In this document: positions 12,908 through 24,188 of the stretch, one piece after another
Numbering within the stretch: the stretch's first letter is position 1
Layout: each line of letters begins with the position of its first letter
From: a virus
Direction: 5' to 3' (one strand)
IMG/VR virus record: IMGVR_UViG_3300025781_000049
Location: 1-28,027 of that record
DNA length: 28,027 nucleotides
Made by a program: the position numbers and the translations under genes
Notes under the pieces: model-generated
What the model saw: only the letters and a program-made list of their open reading frames with translations
Databases searched by the model: none
Told to the model about the DNA's origin: nothing

Positions 12908-13919
12908 TTTCATCGACCCAACATGTAGCCATCCGACATTAGACGCAACTACCTTTCCTATAGGAAGTGCAGGTAGAAGTAATGGTTTTAATATTCTGCC
13001 GTTTTTATGTCAATTAATGAAGGCAGCAGTTGATCAAAGCGTTGATCCGATGTTAGTGCCTCCTGCTCAATATGACATGTCAAAACATTTAGATTTCTCA
13101 GCACTTACTGGTGTTGGTGATTCTAGATTTAGTACGGGTGCTATAATGTCAGCGGCATTTGTTAAATTCTTACCTAGATTAATAACACAAATAGAGGTAA
13201 AAAATTCTGGTGGTACTCAAATAATTGATAACTATATTTGCGATTCTGATGGCAATGCTATAAAAGAATCCATGACTGTTCCTGTAATGACTACAGTAAC
13301 TAGTAAAGGAGCTAATTTGTATGGTTATGAAATTCCAGCTGGTTTAAATACTAATGATTTATTAAAACCATTAAACCAACAAGAAGTTTATGATTATATA
13401 AATGGGTTTATTCAAAGTCAGTCTGAAAACGCTGCTGATTATTTTATATCTTATTTAGAATTAAATTATCCAAGTAGTAATTGGTCTTATTCGGTTGGTG
13501 GATTTACTCTTCCTCCATTTTTTTATGTTGAAGTCACAAATTCAAAAACAAATCAATATGTTTATTTCAAATATCATGAAAATGTAAAAGATTATGTTGT
13601 GGGTAAATTGTTTGATCTTGGTTTAATACCAAGTAAAAACATTAATTATAGTCCCAAACCTAATTTCAGTAATAGTGCTCTTGTAGCGGCTTACATGAGT
13701 GTAGTTCCGGATTACAAAGATTTATTAAATAATAAAGATGCAAGTCAAACTTATTTGGATAAAGTTAGTAATACAGTCACTACTAGTTCTCCTAATGAAT
13801 ATAAAGATCAAAGACAAGCAAATACTGATAAATACAATCAATTATATAATGATTTCTATGCATTGAAAACAGATTTCTATGCAGTAAAAAAGAAATTACA
13901 AGATAAAAAAGAAATTTAA
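12900..13919 (+). CDS. Hypothetical protein, possibly structural
   Basis: A 339-residue protein with no recognised family. The first 250 residues are strand-rich with Gly, Thr and Asn, as in tail or capsid proteins. The C-terminal 60 residues are a charged, probably coiled-coil tail (KYNQLYNDFYALKTDFYAVKKKLQDKK). It is the last + strand gene before the tail block and meets the spike gene tail to tail, the two stops sharing TTAA at 13916-13919. A virion or tail accessory role is inferred from that position and composition only. Confidence 0.65.
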   Translation: MTDFIDPTCSHPTLDATTFPIGSAGRSNGFNILPFLCQLMKAAVDQSVDPMLVPPAQYDMSKHLDFSALTGVGDSRFSTGAIMSAAFVKFLPRLITQIEVKNSGGTQIIDNYICDSDGNAIKESMTVPVMTTVTSKGANLYGYEIPAGLNTNDLLKPLNQQEVYDYINGFIQSQSENAADYFISYLELNYPSSNWSYSVGGFTLPPFFYVEVTNSKTNQYVYFKYHENVKDYVVGKLFDLGLIPSKNINYSPKPNFSNSALVAAYMSVVPDYKDLLNNKDASQTYLDKVSNTVTTSSPNEYKDQRQANTDKYNQLYNDFYALKTDFYAVKKKLQDKKEI

Positions 13920-15943
13920 CAGTTATATTGTGTACTAGGAGTAACACCCACAATACTTCCATCTGGATTGAATTGTGCTGTTACAGGAACGAAATTGCCA
14001 GTAAAAGCTTCGGCTGGTAATCCATAAGCAGCATTTCTTGCTTGAATTGCATTATTAGCTCTATTTTGAGCATTTGCGAATGATGCACCACCGACTAAAC
14101 ATCCACCGCCTACGGAATTAGGACCCGGTGACGTACCAGAAGGTTCCGGTGGAGGTGTTGGTACGTGACTACCATTAGGTCTATTTGAAAGATAACCTTC
14201 CATACCATCATATGAAACACAAGCGGGATGTTCATGAAAATGTGTATGACCTCCTGATATCTGTGGATGATTATGAGGAAAACTCCAAACAGGCATGAAT
14301 CCCGGATCGACGATACCCGGCCCTGTATCTGTAGTCACAGTTATTGGTGACAACAAGAAATAATCATAACCTGTCATAGCAAATCCTGCTGGTAATCCTT
14401 CATTAGCAACTGGTGTGTTGATTTTAACTAAATTAATACCTTTTAATACCGCATTTGTAAGCCACTCTAAAGATAAGATATAATCCAAACCATCTATGAC
14501 TGTATTTATTATATGTAAAGTTTCAGCAAATGTATTATATACAGTCGCCTGATGACCATTTTCAAATGGAGGTAATGAATTATAAACAGGATGATGTGAA
14601 ACTGGATCACAAGCAGAAGCTGCTTCAGTTTGATATTGTGTACTTCTTGTTATTAAAGTAGGAGTTGCAACTGCTCCATCTAAAATAATAGTACCTTTTA
14701 CATTTAAATCACCATTTACAGAAAGTTTACCAGTTACGTGTGTTCTTTTTGCATCAAAAAGAATAGCACTATCACCAGATCTATCATTTGCGTCTAATTT
14801 TATATTTTTACCTTTTAACGTAGTTAGACCATTAGAAGCGACAATCATTTCACCGTGTGTACTTAATAGGTCAACACTTCCAGCATGAATTGCGGTATGA
14901 CCAGTTGTTTGTATCTCTATACCCGGTGCACCCGCAGATACAGTAAATTTATTACTAGCATCTAAGAAAATTTCACCACCCGGCGTACTATCTACCCCAA
15001 TATGGTGTAACATATCTTTCATTGCACCTTCTTGTTCTATACCCAATTCTTTTTTACCTTTACAATTTAGTCCAGTTGGAAAGGGAACGGATAAACCTAT
15101 GCCATAAGGAATAATATTATTTTTAACTAATCCTGCTCTTATATGTAAACCACCAGAAAAATGATGAACATTAGCATTCGGACTAAGATTTTGTTCGTGT
15201 TTAGTTATTTCGGATTGTTTCTCTTGTAATTGTTGTTGTGCTATATTGTTTGCTTGTTGGAAATTATTACCATTTGTTTTCATCACACCCCCTTCACAAT
15301 TAGGATGTCCGCAACTTTTACCACCAGTTAAAGATAAATTACTGGTTTCCGACATAAAGGGAACCAATAACATAGTTAAATATTTGTTTAATTTTTCTAC
15401 ATTAAATGGTGCCCAAGGTAGAATTTTATATTTTTCAATAGTTCTTAATATTTGACCAGCAAGCACACTTGCTCTTTGCGTGTTTACTTTACCAGCACAC
15501 ACTGGACATTTTACTTGATCGGGTTCTGCTGATTCAAATGCTTGTTTTTTCTGCTCATGTATATCATTAACCATTCCTTGTATAGCACTAGCTGATTGTA
15601 CGGCAGTGCTATCGTGGGAACCCGGTACATTCACCGTATTCCCCTTTGCATGATGAAACGAATGTCCACCAACTACGCTCTGATGAGAACCACCCGTAGA
15701 TTGAACATGATCTTTTTTAGAATTATTAATTGTATCGCCCTCTGAATTTAGAAAAATACCACCGGGTTTCAAGAATGCAAAATTACCAGTATTATCTTGT
15801 AATCCTATTACTGATAAATCATCTGGTACAACAGATCCAAACGGAGATTTCTGAAGATGATATTTAAAAAGAAGTTGACCTGCTGGTGAATAAAAACCAT
15901 CAGTAAATTTTATTTCATTTTCATCATTTACATTTTCGGACAT
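13916..15943 (-). CDS. Beta-helical central spike protein (gp5 C-terminal/gpV-like) with His-rich tip
   Basis: A 675-residue protein. The N-terminal part has short Gly-rich strands (GFYSPAGQLLFKYH, FLKPGGIFLNSEGD). Residues 145-216 carry CPVC (146-149) and CGHPNC (211-216), a likely zinc site interrupted by about 60 residues. Residues 320-425 are a regular repeat of short strands (EIFLDAS, IEIQTTGH, VDLLSTHGEM, IKLDAND, KLSVNGDLNVKG), typical of triple-stranded beta-helix needles. Near the end, His557, 559, 566, 568, 570 and 572 form a cluster (PHNHP, HTHFHEHP) like the metal-binding tips of P2 gpV-type spikes. It would sit under the hub and pierce the outer membrane or surface. The OB-fold gp5 part is encoded separately just upstream. 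The gene has its own promoter-like element, and its stop overlaps that of the convergent gene by 4 bases. Confidence 0.78.
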   Translation of the reverse strand: MSENVNDENEIKFTDGFYSPAGQLLFKYHLQKSPFGSVVPDDLSVIGLQDNTGNFAFLKPGGIFLNSEGDTINNSKKDHVQSTGGSHQSVVGGHSFHHAKGNTVNVPGSHDSTAVQSASAIQGMVNDIHEQKKQAFESAEPDQVKCPVCAGKVNTQRASVLAGQILRTIEKYKILPWAPFNVEKLNKYLTMLLVPFMSETSNLSLTGGKSCGHPNCEGGVMKTNGNNFQQANNIAQQQLQEKQSEITKHEQNLSPNANVHHFSGGLHIRAGLVKNNIIPYGIGLSVPFPTGLNCKGKKELGIEQEGAMKDMLHHIGVDSTPGGEIFLDASNKFTVSAGAPGIEIQTTGHTAIHAGSVDLLSTHGEMIVASNGLTTLKGKNIKLDANDRSGDSAILFDAKRTHVTGKLSVNGDLNVKGTIILDGAVATPTLITRSTQYQTEAASACDPVSHHPVYNSLPPFENGHQATVYNTFAETLHIINTVIDGLDYILSLEWLTNAVLKGINLVKINTPVANEGLPAGFAMTGYDYFLLSPITVTTDTGPGIVDPGFMPVWSFPHNHPQISGGHTHFHEHPACVSYDGMEGYLSNRPNGSHVPTPPPEPSGTSPGPNSVGGGCLVGGASFANAQNRANNAIQARNAAYGLPAEAFTGNFVPVTAQFNPDGSIVGVTPSTQYNC

Positions 15944-15976: not shown

Positions 15977-17089
15977 TTAAACATGGTGACCAGCTGGTGA
16001 TGCATTTGCTTCTAACACACTTGCAAAATAAACTGGTTTTTGCGGATCTCCTCCGTGAAAAAATACCCAAACTTTAGATCCAACTGCTGGTTTAGAAATA
16101 AACCCTTTTACGCCAGTATTTGGCAAACTAGCAATTCCAGATTTTTGCATCTGAACTGGTCTATGATCATCAGATGTTTGTGGACCTTGAGTTTGATTCT
16201 GAGCTATATAATCGGTATTTAAATTGCCACTAGCTATCCAATCAGCAGCAGATTGTCCTTGTGGTACGGTACCGGGAAAATCAGCTAATTGTTGTTGTAA
16301 CTCTTGATTTGTTTTAGGATACGAACTTGCTTTACCCACAACAGTCCATTCCATACTAGTTCCATTATAAGGTGAATTTTTATATTGCGTAGGATCTACC
16401 CAAACGTCAACATTACCAGCAGTATCACTACCCGATGTATCTACAATCATTACTTTTTCTCCTGTTTTAGAATTATATAAAACCGTACCATTCGGTAAAT
16501 TTGGGTCATTTGTAGCAGCCGCACCGGGTCCTAAATTCTGATATCCACTATTACCAAATCCTTTATTGGTATTACTATCATGATTCAGATCTGGTCCTCC
16601 TACATCTACACCAAAACTATATTCAGTAGTAAAAGCAGTAATTTTTTTTCCATCTGTACTAGCTGGAGCATCTTGTTTTTGCGGTGGATCACCATCAGCA
16701 CTAGAAGCTATTGGAGTCACGTTTTTCCCAGCAGCTGTATTTGGATCTGTTTTAGGGGATTGTGAAGCTGAAGAATTCGGATCTTGAAGAGAAACTTCTG
16801 GTTTAATTTGTGGTCCGGTTTTAGAATTTACTGGTGCTGATGTCCCACCACCAAAACTTAAATTTGCTTTTTCAGACCAAGGTAAAACATTTTTTAATCT
16901 TCTTAAGATATCAGGAGTAAATGTACCATCAACTGTTTTAAAACTTTTATCAGTACCCAATTGATCATTCCAAGAATCAATTAAAGTATTACTTAAACTT
17001 GGTATAAAAACCTGAACTCTACTTCTATTTTCAGGATCTTGATCGTTTATAACAAATCCTATATGATTACCATTTATATAGTCATCCAT
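15977..17089 (-). CDS. gp5-like baseplate hub OB-fold protein with inserted double-psi-barrel-like domain
   Basis: A 370-residue protein. The N-terminus (HIGFVINDQDPENRSRVQVF, 9-28) and C-terminus (SKPAVGSKVWVFFHGGDP, 332-349, then PVYFASV) form the two halves of a gp5/VgrG-type OB fold. Between them are an Asp/Ser/Pro-rich linker (80-148) and a domain (about 151-253) with PGAAATNDPNLPNGTVLY, VMIVDTSG (Asp217), NVDVWVDP (Asp228) and a closing MEWTVVG. That order matches double-psi beta-barrel domains of the 3D/MltA/RlpA kind, in which an Asp cleaves peptidoglycan glycan strands. T4 gp5 carries a lysozyme at the same topological place. The assignment of the insert is a pattern call. It starts one base after the upstream SGNH gene and precedes the spike gene. 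Confidence 0.75.
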   Translation of the reverse strand: MDDYINGNHIGFVINDQDPENRSRVQVFIPSLSNTLIDSWNDQLGTDKSFKTVDGTFTPDILRRLKNVLPWSEKANLSFGGGTSAPVNSKTGPQIKPEVSLQDPNSSASQSPKTDPNTAAGKNVTPIASSADGDPPQKQDAPASTDGKKITAFTTEYSFGVDVGGPDLNHDSNTNKGFGNSGYQNLGPGAAATNDPNLPNGTVLYNSKTGEKVMIVDTSGSDTAGNVDVWVDPTQYKNSPYNGTSMEWTVVGKASSYPKTNQELQQQLADFPGTVPQGQSAADWIASGNLNTDYIAQNQTQGPQTSDDHRPVQMQKSGIASLPNTGVKGFISKPAVGSKVWVFFHGGDPQKPVYFASVLEANASPAGHHV

Positions 17090-17090
17090 A

Positions 17091-19094
17091 TCAATTAGAT
17101 TTAGCGGGTTTACCTGAAGAACTTACTCCATCAGCAGGAGGAGTAAATAAATCAGACCAAGCATTTTTTAAATTAGTATAGTCTTCTTGTATTGGGACAA
17201 ATACATTTTTTACTGGATTACCATTTGAATCTATTAATGTTCCATCTGATCTAGTATAGACATTCGGATGTAAATTAAAATCAGGTACAGGTAATTTACC
17301 ACCAAAATGTGTAAAAATAGCTTGAGCTTTACCTAAATATTGACCTAATTGAGACATACCAGCCATATTAGATCCATATTTGCTTTCTAATGCACCTATT
17401 AAATCTCCGTGTAAAGCTTGCATTACATATCCATAGCCAAAATTCTGCAATTTATTAGCTAAAAATGCATCGGGATTACTACCTATCGTATTAACTAAAT
17501 TGAATATATCTTGTATTTGTGGTGGTAAATGCGAAGTAATAATACCCAAAGGATCAACTGTTAATTGAGAAGTAGCAGTTAATATCTGTTGAAATCCATT
17601 TAAATAATTTAAAAACGGACCAGACATTTGAAATAAAGATGTAAAGAAATTTATATCATCTAATATTACCTGTAATGTTTCTAATATCAAACATAATAAA
17701 TCTAATGGAATAATACTATCAATTAAACTTAAAAGTTTTTGTTTGATTTTTGCCAAAACACCATTTACTTGAGCATAAAGTTGTTTTACTAAATCAATAC
17801 AACCTTGATACATATCATAAATTAATTGTTCAAATGTTTGAACTACAGCTTGTATTTTTGCTAATAATCTATTTAATGAACCAAAAGAACCTTTTGGTAA
17901 AGTAAGCCAAGCATGAGTTCTTATTTTATTGCAAAAATTTACTAATTCCTGAGTAGCACCCGGATGGATACTATCCAATAAATTAGTAACTAAACTAGAA
18001 TGTATATTTGGTGAACCCGTAATTGGATTTGCTGGTTGATTACCAGCATTTATACCATGAGTTACACCATAGCAACCAATATTGTCAAAACAGTGTTTTG
18101 CGTAGGCTGGTGTTTTTGATATTATTTTTTTTAATGTTACATCCTTTGCTAATAATCTAAAACTGTTAATGAAATTTTCATCCATTACTGCTTTCTGTTG
18201 CTTACCCGGATCTAAATCCGCTGTTATCGTGCCATAATCAAAACCTTCAACTAACATTCTTAATAGTATTAAATATGAATTTATATTTAATTCAACACCA
18301 TAATGATTCCATGTTCTCTTTAATATCGCTAATTCATCCGCATTTAATCCTGTTTTTTGTTCCCAATCTGCTATTATTTTTGCTTGTGAATTTTGATTTT
18401 GCTGAGTTTGAGATTGAGTCTGATTAGCAGCTTGGGTTTGATTAGCAGCTTGAGTTTGATCTGTTTGATTTTGTGTATCGTCTGGAGGTGGAGGAGGAAT
18501 CGATTGAGCGTCAGTTTGATCCGGTTGAGCCACTACGGGTGTAGGATTATCTTGATTCGCTGATGATGAAGGAGCACTACTTTGACCATTTACTCCACTA
18601 GACGTAGTTAAATCAACTCCATTTAAATTCTGTGTATTATTTAAAATAGCAGAAGAACTAATGCCTCTTTGTGCATAAAGAACCCCATTATAATTTGAGT
18701 TTATATCATTGACTTCTCCATTCTGAAGTCCTAAATTCTCATTGACACCAACTGCAATACTATCACCAACACCTATATATTGAGTATTTGGATAATATTG
18801 TTCAGCTTGATTAATAGCATATTGATAACCAGCATCACTCGGATGTATACCATCCCCACCTGCATAGTATTTATCAGGAATTACGACGACAGGTGCTCCA
18901 TTAGCACCCGCTGCTACATAATCTGAGACACTACCAGAACCTCGTAAAGCGGGACCGGGTGCAACCAATACCACATTATTACTTTGATTTAATGCACCAA
19001 CTGTATTCGATACATTTTGTTGGGTTTTAGCTCCGGAAATTTGACCCGGATCATTACTCCCCGTAGATAAAATAATTGTATTTGCGTATGCCAT
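17091..19094 (-). CDS. Tail/baseplate protein with N-terminal SGNH-hydrolase motifs in permuted order
   Basis: A 667-residue protein. Residues 1-150 contain all SGNH/GDSL hydrolase blocks, but in the order III-V-I-II: ILSTGSND (8-15, oxyanion Asn14), DGIHPSDAGY (81-90, Asp81 and His84), IGVGDSIAVGV (107-117, nucleophile Ser112) and QRGISS (142-147, Gly144). A circular permutation explains this. Residues 165-235 are a Ser/Gln/Thr/Pro-rich linker with a hexapeptide repeat. Residues 240-667 are mostly helical with hydrophobic stretches (SLIDSIIPLDLLCLILETLQ near 450) and end in a strand-rich tail. SGNH enzymes in tails commonly deacetylate or cleave esters in host polysaccharide. The gene is followed at one base by the gp5-like gene, which suggests a tail-tip location. 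The start ATG at 19094 has a leader of unclear promoter; no signal peptide is seen. Confidence 0.75.
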   Translation of the reverse strand: MAYANTIILSTGSNDPGQISGAKTQQNVSNTVGALNQSNNVVLVAPGPALRGSGSVSDYVAAGANGAPVVVIPDKYYAGGDGIHPSDAGYQYAINQAEQYYPNTQYIGVGDSIAVGVNENLGLQNGEVNDINSNYNGVLYAQRGISSSAILNNTQNLNGVDLTTSSGVNGQSSAPSSSANQDNPTPVVAQPDQTDAQSIPPPPPDDTQNQTDQTQAANQTQAANQTQSQTQQNQNSQAKIIADWEQKTGLNADELAILKRTWNHYGVELNINSYLILLRMLVEGFDYGTITADLDPGKQQKAVMDENFINSFRLLAKDVTLKKIISKTPAYAKHCFDNIGCYGVTHGINAGNQPANPITGSPNIHSSLVTNLLDSIHPGATQELVNFCNKIRTHAWLTLPKGSFGSLNRLLAKIQAVVQTFEQLIYDMYQGCIDLVKQLYAQVNGVLAKIKQKLLSLIDSIIPLDLLCLILETLQVILDDINFFTSLFQMSGPFLNYLNGFQQILTATSQLTVDPLGIITSHLPPQIQDIFNLVNTIGSNPDAFLANKLQNFGYGYVMQALHGDLIGALESKYGSNMAGMSQLGQYLGKAQAIFTHFGGKLPVPDFNLHPNVYTRSDGTLIDSNGNPVKNVFVPIQEDYTNLKNAWSDLFTPPADGVSSSGKPAKSN
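18421..18456 (-). repeat. Two tandem 18-base units in the linker of the SGNH protein
   Basis: Two 18-base units (18421-18438 and 18439-18456) differ at one base and encode the repeated hexapeptide QTQAAN. They extend the Gln/Thr-rich linker between the hydrolase and helical domains, and probably vary in copy number among relatives. Confidence 0.8.
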
Positions 19095-19135: not shown

Positions 19136-19747
19136 ATGTCTAAATCTCAAAATTCATATCCTCCAATAGGTATTGCTGGAGCAGCTAGAGCAGGTAAAGA
19201 TACTCTATGTAGAGGTTTGCGTAGAATGTTTTCAGAATTTGACATACCAAGTAAAAGAAAATCTATTGCGGGGGACACAATTAAAAGTGATTTCAAAGAA
19301 CTTTTGAATAATTCATTCAATATCAACTCCTTTACAGAAGATTTAGAAGAAAAGGAATTAATTCGACCTCTAATGGTCGAATATGGCAAAATAGCAAGAA
19401 TTAAAACAGAAGGTAGATATTTTATAGAAAAATGTGATTTGGATAAAGATTTTGTTAATATTATACCAGATATTCGTTATACAGAATATTCTAGAGACGA
19501 AGTCCAATGGTTAAAAAACGAAGTAGGTGGATTATTAATATTTGTTGAAAGAAAAAACATTTTCGATGCAAATGATACAGAGAGAGTTAATAATAAAATT
19601 ATTAAACCTATGGCTGATGTGAGAATATCATGGTCTAATTTAAATGAAAATATTCAGAATGAAAGAGAACAAATAGATTCATTTGCTAGTGATATTATAA
19701 CAAATTATTATTTACCACTTACCAAGAGGACAATTAGCGGCTCGTAA
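19136..19747 (+). CDS. 1: Deoxynucleoside monophosphate kinase (gp1-like)
   Basis: A 203-residue P-loop kinase. Walker A is GAARAGKDT (15-23) preceded by IGIAG; a second family feature is the NIIPDIRYTEY segment (about 108-118), where T4-type dNMP kinases have a conserved DxR near the substrate site. It would phosphorylate dNMPs to dNDPs and so complements ThyX in supplying DNA precursors. T4 gp1 is 241 residues. It stands alone on the + strand within tail genes, with its own sigma70-like promoter, and its 3' end overlaps the convergent zinc-protein gene by 36 bases (19712-19747). Confidence 0.85.
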   Translation: MSKSQNSYPPIGIAGAARAGKDTLCRGLRRMFSEFDIPSKRKSIAGDTIKSDFKELLNNSFNINSFTEDLEEKELIRPLMVEYGKIARIKTEGRYFIEKCDLDKDFVNIIPDIRYTEYSRDEVQWLKNEVGGLLIFVERKNIFDANDTERVNNKIIKPMADVRISWSNLNENIQNEREQIDSFASDIITNYYLPLTKRTISGS

Positions 19748-21694: not shown

Positions 21695-22303
21695 TTAACA
21701 AGAAACAGTATCAACGTTTCTTAGTAAAGAAACATTCAATTGATTGAATACAAAAGTAACAGTACAATTTATTTCCGTCGGTTCTTGATTTGAAAAATTT
21801 ATTTCTCCCAATGTAGTAGGAAATGCGTTTGAGTAATCAAATGATATAATTTTATTATTATATTCATCTAAAGAAACGATAGAAAATTTTGAAGTATAAT
21901 CAAAAAAAGGATTAATTATTGGTAATTTATTAGTATTTCTTTCTGGTGGATTCAATACATTTGTTATATCCGAAGTTGAATTAGAAGTGTTATTAAACTG
22001 ATTTATCCAGTTCCATAATATCCAGTAATTCTTATATCCATTATCAACTAAAAATTTAACTGTTATTGGATTATATGCTGGTCTAGAATAAGAAGAAGTT
22101 TTGTGAACTTGTCCACCAAAAGGAACATTTATTTCGGGTACGGTTATTTGGGGTACTGGTGATCCATAAATTGTAAATTGAATTGGATCTGCACTATAAG
22201 AAGTACCCAATACCGGATCATATACGTTCTTTAGTGATTTTGGTAAATCCAAAATCATTAAAAATTTATCATTCCTAGATCTATTTAAAACTGCTTGATT
22301 CAT
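21695..22303 (-). CDS. Tail tube-fold protein (gp19-like, or tube-initiator)
   Basis: A 202-residue protein. The C-terminal part SFDYSNAFPTTLGEINFS followed by INCTVTFVFNQLNV corresponds to the T4 gp19 end (LWPTNVGELQLD then FEVTLALDYWE), and YNPITVKFLVDNGY with WILWNWINQF matches its central pattern. It is longer than gp19 (163). The gp19, gp48 and gp54 proteins share this fold, so it may be the main tube or the tube initiator at the hub. Its place between terminase and the gp27-like hub fits both. It starts one base after the terminase stop, in a TAATATG junction. Confidence 0.72.
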   Translation of the reverse strand: MNQAVLNRSRNDKFLMILDLPKSLKNVYDPVLGTSYSADPIQFTIYGSPVPQITVPEINVPFGGQVHKTSSYSRPAYNPITVKFLVDNGYKNYWILWNWINQFNNTSNSTSDITNVLNPPERNTNKLPIINPFFDYTSKFSIVSLDEYNNKIISFDYSNAFPTTLGEINFSNQEPTEINCTVTFVFNQLNVSLLRNVDTVSC

Positions 22304-22304
22304 A

Positions 22305-24188
22305 TTAAAATATCATTGGTAATGTATAACCATCCCCATCATACTTACTATCTTCATCTTTTAATGGTGTTTGTTTACTTAAAGAAAAATCATTTTTAGG
22401 TGGTTTTTGTCCATCCCAATTCAAAAGCCAAGATCTAAGTTCATTTTCTTCTTCTTGAATAGATGGATTGTTTTTTTCTAAATCGAATTTTCCTACCCAA
22501 GAAGTATTTGTCGATATATTGTCGGTTTTTTTATAAACAGTAGCTTTTCCTTCAAAAATAGGACTTTTCTTAATTAAATCTGAATTATCTATTAAAGGTT
22601 TTATTTTTAGTGGTCTACCCTGATCATCGACTTCAGATATATTAAAATATTTTGCAGCCAAAGAAGGATCTAATATGAATAAAGCCCAAATTAAACCAAA
22701 AACTCTATCATCCAAATCTTTATCGTTCTTTTTACTATAAGTGAAATTTGGTAATCTAATAAAATTAGCTAATTCTAAAGTTGTTTCAATATCATTTAGT
22801 TTAACTGCATTTAAACTATTAGTCCAGTATCTGAAGTTAGTTACTCCCTTATATTTGGTATTTGTATGATTATGAATACCATATCTGTGATCTTTATTAT
22901 AATGTTTACTAAATCCTTCAAAATGATAAGAAACTAAATTTTCATAATTGTGAGTATTGACCAATACATCTAGAACCTGTTGACCATTATTGTTATTTTC
23001 TACGAGTAATGGTGGTCTACCCCAATCTTCCATTATACCCATTAATCTAGTTCCAAAATGAAACGGACTCATTGTATTTGTTGCATATACAGCGACCTGT
23101 TCGATATTAGTTAAGTCCGAAACATCAAGTATTTGAGAAACAGTATTAGATCTTCCTATACCTTCTCCAACATCAACTCCAACCACATAAAACGAATCTA
23201 TTTTGGGTGGAGAGAATATCTTATAAGATCCATTATCCATAACCAAAATAGGTTCTCTACATCCTGATTTTAGTTTTTCTAATAATTCTGGATCAATTGC
23301 TGTTTTGCCTTTTTCATGGAAAACGTTTCCAAATTCCTGATCAAAATCATCCTTTGATCCCATTTCAGCAATTGTATTCTTTTTCCATTCATCGTCACGA
23401 CCGGGCACCTCCCACCAATCCACTCTTTCCAAATGCCATCTACTATTCTCCTTTTGCGTTTCTTGATATAATTCGTAAAATTTATTATCAACACCATTAG
23501 GTGTACTAATTAAAACCAATTGAGATTTCTTCATCGAAGAAATTACAGGATAAGCTGACTTCCAAAGCTCATTCATGAGATCTTTGTTAATGTGAGCCAT
23601 TTCGTCGATGATTAAAAGATTACTAGTACTACCACGAGGACCGGATGATGATGTTGTACTGATACTGATAGAAGAGCCATTCTTCAGATCAATACCATCA
23701 TTTCTAAATGATTTAACTGAAGGTTTCATCCAAACAGGTAACTGTTCAAACGCCATCTTCATTCTATCGAATATTTCTTCTGCTGTATCTTTTTTATTTG
23801 CAAGAATTGTTATTCTCTTATCGTCTTGGAAACAAACCATCCATAAAGCATATATAGTTATAGTTGTTGTTTTACCGGACTGTCTACTTGATAAAACTAA
23901 ATTAAATCTATTGTTTGCAAATGCTTTTAATAGTCTCTTTTGATATTTTCTTAATTCTATTTTTTGTTTCCCGTCTTCTGTAACAATATAAAAATAATTC
24001 TCAGCAAAATGAGTTATTTTTCTTCCGCAATTTCTAACTTCCTCCAACATTTCAGGAGTCCATTTAATCTGAGCTTCTCCTCTTAAAAGATTTTCGTTTC
24101 CTTTATAAAAATTTGCATCTACTACAATGTCCTCAATCTGAAGATCATCCAAAGAAGGAGCTTCTACTATTTTCTTCTTTCTACCCAT
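22305..24188 (-). CDS. 17: Large terminase subunit gp17 (ATPase-nuclease)
   Basis: A 627-residue DNA-packaging motor. The ATPase half has the adenine-binding region RKYQKRLL (80-87), Walker A SRQSGKTT (101-108), Walker B LLIIDEMAHI (191-200) and coupling motif STPNG (228-232). The nuclease half is RNase H-like with VVGVDVGEG (Asp339), LLVENN (Glu397) and LDDRV (Asp493/Asp494), corresponding to the Asp-Glu-Asp triad of T4 gp17. It cuts concatemers and drives DNA into the prohead. The ATG at 24188 lies one base from the TATAAATA element that faces the divergent gene at 24203. No small terminase gene is recognisable in the window. Confidence 0.96.
   Translation of the reverse strand: MGRKKKIVEAPSLDDLQIEDIVVDANFYKGNENLLRGEAQIKWTPEMLEEVRNCGRKITHFAENYFYIVTEDGKQKIELRKYQKRLLKAFANNRFNLVLSSRQSGKTTTITIYALWMVCFQDDKRITILANKKDTAEEIFDRMKMAFEQLPVWMKPSVKSFRNDGIDLKNGSSISISTTSSSGPRGSTSNLLIIDEMAHINKDLMNELWKSAYPVISSMKKSQLVLISTPNGVDNKFYELYQETQKENSRWHLERVDWWEVPGRDDEWKKNTIAEMGSKDDFDQEFGNVFHEKGKTAIDPELLEKLKSGCREPILVMDNGSYKIFSPPKIDSFYVVGVDVGEGIGRSNTVSQILDVSDLTNIEQVAVYATNTMSPFHFGTRLMGIMEDWGRPPLLVENNNNGQQVLDVLVNTHNYENLVSYHFEGFSKHYNKDHRYGIHNHTNTKYKGVTNFRYWTNSLNAVKLNDIETTLELANFIRLPNFTYSKKNDKDLDDRVFGLIWALFILDPSLAAKYFNISEVDDQGRPLKIKPLIDNSDLIKKSPIFEGKATVYKKTDNISTNTSWVGKFDLEKNNPSIQEEENELRSWLLNWDGQKPPKNDFSLSKQTPLKDEDSKYDGDGYTLPMIF

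Follow-up and report, generated by a model that had tools for sequence, protein, structure and literature searches.

A phage tail-region protein with an SGNH-type domain in a circularly permuted block order

Introduction

SGNH enzymes canonically carry their conserved sequence blocks in the order I-II-III-V, and in the chemistry of the superfamily a Ser attacks the ester, aided by a His-Asp pair. The hydrolases of PF13472 (Lipase_GDSL_2) and PF00657, for example PAF acetylhydrolase Ib and PDB 4h08, follow this order. AlgX, AlgJ, and PatB1 are instead circularly permuted SGNH enzymes with the order H-S-G-N, altered motifs, and acetyltransferase activity (PMC4148444, PMC9487903). SGNH esterases and deacetylases are also known from phage tail fibers, including those of phage G7C and of Klebsiella prophages (PMC13123978).

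Here we analyze P0001, a tail-region protein of an uncultured T4-like phage whose N-terminal domain is, as several lines of sequence comparison support, of SGNH type with a circularly permuted chain. It resembles AlgX, AlgJ, and the DHHW enzyme PatB1 in its predicted permuted SGNH fold with Asp and His ahead of Ser (PMC4148444, PMC9487903), but the cut differs: in those enzymes it lies between blocks III and V, whereas P0001, with the order N-H-S-G, is cut between II and III. Moreover, they are bacterial transferases with DxH or DHHW in block V and GTS or KDS in block I, and AlgX and AlgJ have Tyr in place of the block III Asn, whereas P0001 has the classical DGIHP and GDS and keeps GSND. With the PF13472/PF00657 hydrolases it shares all four blocks, in register after rotation, and differs from them in block order. 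Like the tail-fiber enzymes, it is an SGNH domain on a phage protein of adsorption or penetration, but those enzymes are fiber proteins that do not adjoin the hub, and no permutation is mentioned for them (PMC13123978). Permuted SGNH enzymes that are cut elsewhere have been described before, which lowers the novelty (PMC4148444, PMC9487903); the N-H-S-G permutation nevertheless looks like a previously undescribed form, occurring in at least three phage protein architectures. A first-pass annotation of this DNA knew of no phage tail enzyme described in this order, and in open-access full text on permuted SGNH/GDSL enzymes we found no account of it from phages.

Results

The window, which is the whole stretch of DNA analyzed (28,027 bases of IMGVR_UViG_3300025781_000049), has a set of late genes of T4-like type on its minus strand (Table 1). 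The first-pass annotation had described the four SGNH blocks in P0001 as present once each in the order III-V-I-II, and we find them there: GSND at residues 12-15, DGIHPSDAGY with Asp81 and His84, IGVGDSI with Ser112, and AQRGISS with Gly144. P0001 thus has the GDS of block I, the Gly of block II, the GxN(D) of block III, and the DxxH of block V, but not the canonical sequential order; since the superfamily accepts permuted members such as AlgX, we regard it as a variant rather than a nonmember. When the same 160 amino acids were shuffled, motifs of blocks III, V, and I at roughly plausible distances from one another arose once in 200,000 shuffles. The domain had been placed at 18640-19094; this position is right, but the domain reaches about residue 157, slightly beyond that end.

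Table 1. Features of P0001 and its neighborhood in the window
Feature	Position	Strand	Basis
P0001 (protein studied, 667 aa)	17091-19094	-	Open reading frame, tail region
Predicted circularly permuted SGNH hydrolase domain, residues 1-157	18624-19094	-	Motif order, rotated-profile matches, permuted homologues
New N-terminal strand and block III (TIILSTGSND)	19050-19079	-	Motif; all four permuted domains have Gly12 and Asn14
Putative oxyanion-hole Asn14 codon (by homology)	19053-19055	-	Block III
Block V (DGIHP, residues 81-85)	18840-18854	-	Motif; matches block V region of PDB 4h08
Predicted catalytic Asp81; His84	18852-18854; 18843-18845	-	Block V
Block I (GDS, residues 110-112)	18759-18767	-	Aligned to GDS of PAF acetylhydrolase
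Predicted nucleophile Ser112 codon	18759-18761	-	Block I
Block II Gly144 (AQRG, residues 141-144)	18663-18665	-	Invariant; aligned to GG of PAF acetylhydrolase
Flexible P/Q/N/T-rich linker, residues 158-240	18375-18623	-	Sequence composition
Conserved C-terminal region, residues 241-667	17094-18374	-	Common to syntenic T4-like phages
gp5-like OB protein (Phage_base_V)	15977-17089	-	Phage_base_V match
Downstream 675-aa protein	13916-15943	-	Same gene order kept in relatives
559-aa conserved protein, between tail tube and P0001	20022-21701	-	Synteny
Tail tube protein	21695-22303	-	PHROG 45, E 1.9e-17
Terminase large subunit	22305-24188	-	Query for finding syntenic relatives

The P0001 frame is single and open and is closed five codons upstream of its ATG (672 versus 667 amino acids), and an opposing gene begins about 40 bases away, at 19136, leaving no upstream half-domain and no frameshift of the kind that the first-pass annotation had named as refuting its own reading. 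That annotation gave no strand; read on the plus strand, 18640-19094 contains many stops. The opposing gene (19136-19747, plus strand) lies inside the minus-strand late block directly upstream of P0001 and is kinase-like, with weak P-mevalo_kinase and AAA_18 matches.

If the ends of the chain were exchanged, undoing the exchange should lengthen and strengthen canonical matches through the artificial joint, and it does: in this check, which the first-pass annotation had proposed, canonical SGNH matches cross the joint. Full-length P0001 has no Pfam or PHROG match at E<=0.01. Its domain, unrotated, matches the second part of PF13472 (124-177) at 17.7 bits and, rotated, matches 2-177 of the 178 positions at 19.6 bits, a modest gain for P0001 alone and below the curated cutoff of 32.9 bits; cut at residue 60, it scores 20.6 bits, but in two separate pieces. 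Rotation raises two relatives described below, L091 and L111, from 23.1 to 25.2-25.8 bits and from 25.5 to 32.2 bits, respectively, the latter against the same cutoff of 32.9. A profile of the four permuted domains gives a best PDB match of E 0.0075 over block III only when unrotated, whereas the rotated profile matches PAF acetylhydrolase Ib (1fxw_F) at E 4.9e-5 with blocks I-II-III unbroken and their Ser, Gly, and Asn in register. Against a canonical profile built from three viral SGNH proteins, the profile-profile score rises from 49.1 unrotated to 68.4 rotated. L108, a viral SGNH protein of canonical order, is matched by the rotated profile in a single domain of 30.4 bits, whereas its alignment to the permuted profile falls into two pieces that have changed places. 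Separately, a compact canonical SGNH gene at L094:4890-5270 is split across two frames, with pieces similar to both the first and the second half of the permuted domains.

Neither P0001 nor its domain, used directly as query, picked up a homologue among phage records or viral contigs. Viral contigs were also scanned for DG[IVM]HP followed by GDS about 18-28 residues on; two such pattern scans returned 54 and 19 stretches, nearly all of them chance, with real permuted domains in three contigs. In L111 (IMGVR_UViG_3300002307_000027, a 116-kb myovirus contig with sheath- and tube-like genes nearby), the permuted SGNH domain precedes an SLT transglycosylase domain (E 1.6e-7). In the phage contigs L061 (11600-14989, minus strand) and L091 (8375-11683, minus strand), it sits in the passenger part of repeat-rich, autotransporter-like proteins of about 1,100 amino acids, and the C-terminal end of the L091 protein matches the Pfam Autotransporter beta-domain at E 2.8e-17.

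These domains recognize one another in the permuted order. A profile made without L111 finds L111 as a single domain at 46.2 bits, against 27.7+7.4 bits for the rotated profile, and a profile of P0001 and L111 finds L061 at 77.0 bits and L091 at 65.6 bits. P0001, the most divergent of the four, matches a profile of the other three at 14.7 bits (domain E 0.007) in the permuted order only. All four keep the Ser, Asp, His, Gly, and Asn; since the three contigs were picked by the DG[IVM]HP...GDS pattern, their conservation of D, H, and S is biased, and independent support comes only from Asn14, Gly12, Gly144, the spacing, and the similarity of the flanks. By sequence, then, the permuted order recurs, with homology throughout the domain, in at least two further kinds of protein encoded by phages, and this form of the domain therefore looks portable. 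The circular permutation proposed in the first-pass annotation is thus backed by rotated profiles that run through the joint, by the swapped L108 alignment, and by independent proteins of the same order.

Among 84,980 genomes of bacteria and archaea, permuted-alignment searches confirmed no relative; their patterns were strict, and the result argues only weakly for true absence. A tree built from both permuted and canonical domains recovers one origin of the permutation in 29% of bootstraps and leaves one versus several events undecided. We would give an even chance to a distinct N-H-S-G family of single origin that serves as a portable module in hub-region, lysozyme-fused, autotransporter, and degenerate cyanophage endolysin-like phage proteins.

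Structure prediction, which the first-pass annotation had also proposed, was moderately good for L111 only. The AlphaFold model of the P0001 domain, made from three sequences because homologues are few, has a pLDDT of 38.5, too low to be informative about contact within the triad. The L111 model, from twelve partly fragmentary rows (pLDDT 64.7, pTM 0.63), has the predicted succession of strands and helices that a rotated SGNH fold should show. A PDB fold search with the L111 model returned no SGNH protein among the best 50, as can happen because Foldseek follows sequence order in its alignments and puts a permuted query at a disadvantage. In BFVD, the L111 model best matches a 962-aa protein from Synechococcus phage ACG-2014d (probability 1.00, E 0.0026, TM-score 0.56), end to end and without reordering; SGNH proteins of canonical order from several phages stand lower in the list, at low probability.

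The corresponding region in phages ACG-2014d, S-SSM4, and S-SSM6b most likely belongs to the second of two genes annotated as endolysin or hypothetical, an assignment of the BFVD protein made from organism and sequence, with lengths of 940 versus 962 amino acids. This "endolysin" (ACG-2014d gp010, S-SSM4 CYXG_00219) is like the permuted domains in that the fold match spans the whole of the L111 domain and in that its gene neighbors that of a tail protein of the hub region and, in ACG-2014d, precedes gp5 by four genes. It differs in its motifs, with GSKD or GTDQ for GSND, no DxxH, and GDQ or GDK for GDS in the three phages. Similarity in sequence is barely detectable (hhalign E 0.02 over 125 columns), and we therefore treat the cyanophage link as a lead, not a result. 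The region is probably a degenerate permuted SGNH-like copy that has lost its catalytic motifs; putative domains of this kind lie at L120:9151-11973 and L122:5125-7554.

Because direct homologue searches were empty, the terminase served as query for syntenic relatives of P0001. Thirteen of the 38 terminase-related loci, some of them near-identical, extend as far as the P0001 position and encode a protein homologous to its residues 241-667, at 33-51% identity, and the N-termini of these thirteen are short or of low complexity, with no SGNH motifs. The SGNH domain is therefore lineage-specific cargo on an otherwise conserved protein of the tail region and is not generally needed. The C-terminal region looks helical and weakly resembles tape-measure proteins, with no match among solved structures. 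Synteny with T4-like relatives and the adjoining gp5-like OB protein support the tail or hub location suggested in the first-pass annotation; the one-base gap to the gp5-like gene, between the P0001 stop at 17091 and the gp5-like start at 17089, is also as it had been described.

Discussion

From the observed motif order, permuted-order homology, and synteny of P0001, a fold, a catalytic mechanism, a substrate, and a virion location can be proposed. The best overall explanation, which we consider probable, is that residues 1-157 form a natural permuted SGNH hydrolase, tethered by a linker, with virion-associated ester hydrolysis as its likeliest job. A short link would connect the old C-terminal helix, which follows block V, to what was once the first strand (IGVGDS), and the new ends would have opened in the loop between the helix that follows block II and the block III strand. 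The spatial active site may thereby be kept: by homology, Ser112 would attack the ester, aided by His84-Asp81, and the Ser112 backbone, Gly144, and Asn14 would form the oxyanion hole. The linker could let the domain reach out from the tail while joining it to the conserved protein whose gene lies between those for the tail tube and the gp5-like hub protein.

An esterase role is suggested by the retained catalytic residues, and most likely the domain is an O-deacetylase or esterase that would belong to the virion and sit beside the gp5-like hub protein. Its job would most plausibly be O-deacetylation of an envelope glycan, either peptidoglycan or a surface polysaccharide, during penetration, which could expose the acetylated polymer to partner hydrolases. 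Envelope glycans are proposed as the target because of the position beside the hub protein, which carries cell-wall hydrolases in relatives, and because of the L111 fusion to a transglycosylase-type domain.

The permuted fold could instead be enzymatically dead and serve as a binding or spacer domain, as the probable degenerate copy in the three cyanophages would suggest. We consider this unlikely, since P0001 and its three permuted relatives keep all five functional residues, of which N14 and G144 lie outside the search pattern. To an active permuted enzyme of other chemistry, an O-acetyltransferase or a lipid esterase rather than a glycan deacetylase, we give a slightly smaller chance. The known permuted enzymes AlgX, AlgJ, and PatB1 are O-acetyltransferases (PMC9487903), which favors it, but blocks I and V of AlgX and AlgJ are altered along with the block III Asn, whereas P0001 keeps the hydrolase-type GDS, GxND, and DxxHP, and no acetyl-donor partner gene is seen within the 28,027-base window. 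Chance likeness of short motifs in a non-SGNH protein, a reading encouraged by single Pfam matches of P0001 that stay under curated cutoffs, is very improbable: the rarity among shuffles and the consistent rotated-profile gains led us to reject it, and one homologue reaches the cutoff of Pfam Lipase_GDSL. We likewise reject, as hardly tenable, the readings that a frameshift or an assembly error broke a canonical gene or that tandem domains left two remnants; such broken genes do exist in viral contigs (L094), but the P0001 frame is intact and closed beside an opposing gene, and the same block order recurs in three unrelated architectures.

A natural permuted hydrolase of this kind would add a second cut point to the very few circular permutations known in a large and well-studied hydrolase superfamily. 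With its classical hydrolase motifs kept, it offers a clean test of what permutation does to SGNH catalysis. Since standard domain searches miss the P0001 domain, phage esterases of this form are probably under-annotated. The autotransporter-like genes of L061 and L091 would put a predicted esterase on the host surface.

The gp5 neighborhood of T4-like phages, moreover, is predicted to carry exchangeable envelope-degrading cargo. In relatives, the gp5-like protein has a VanY peptidase (L002, L009) or Phage_lysozyme2 (L012) inserted in its OB domain, and the gene seems to be a hot spot for hydrolases of the cell wall. A gp5-like OB gene with interchangeable inserts is seen in L002, L005, L007, L008, L009, L012, L015, and L016, the inserts other than these three being unassigned. 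The insert in the gp5-like protein of the window itself (residues ~145-262) resembled a double-psi beta-barrel by eye, an assignment that we dropped after Pfam and PDB searches failed to support it. Three terminase matches (L016:10001-12292, L033:1509-4070, and L034:4400-6967) span about 500-1,050 bases more DNA than the matched query residues, and this excess may be an intein or intron.
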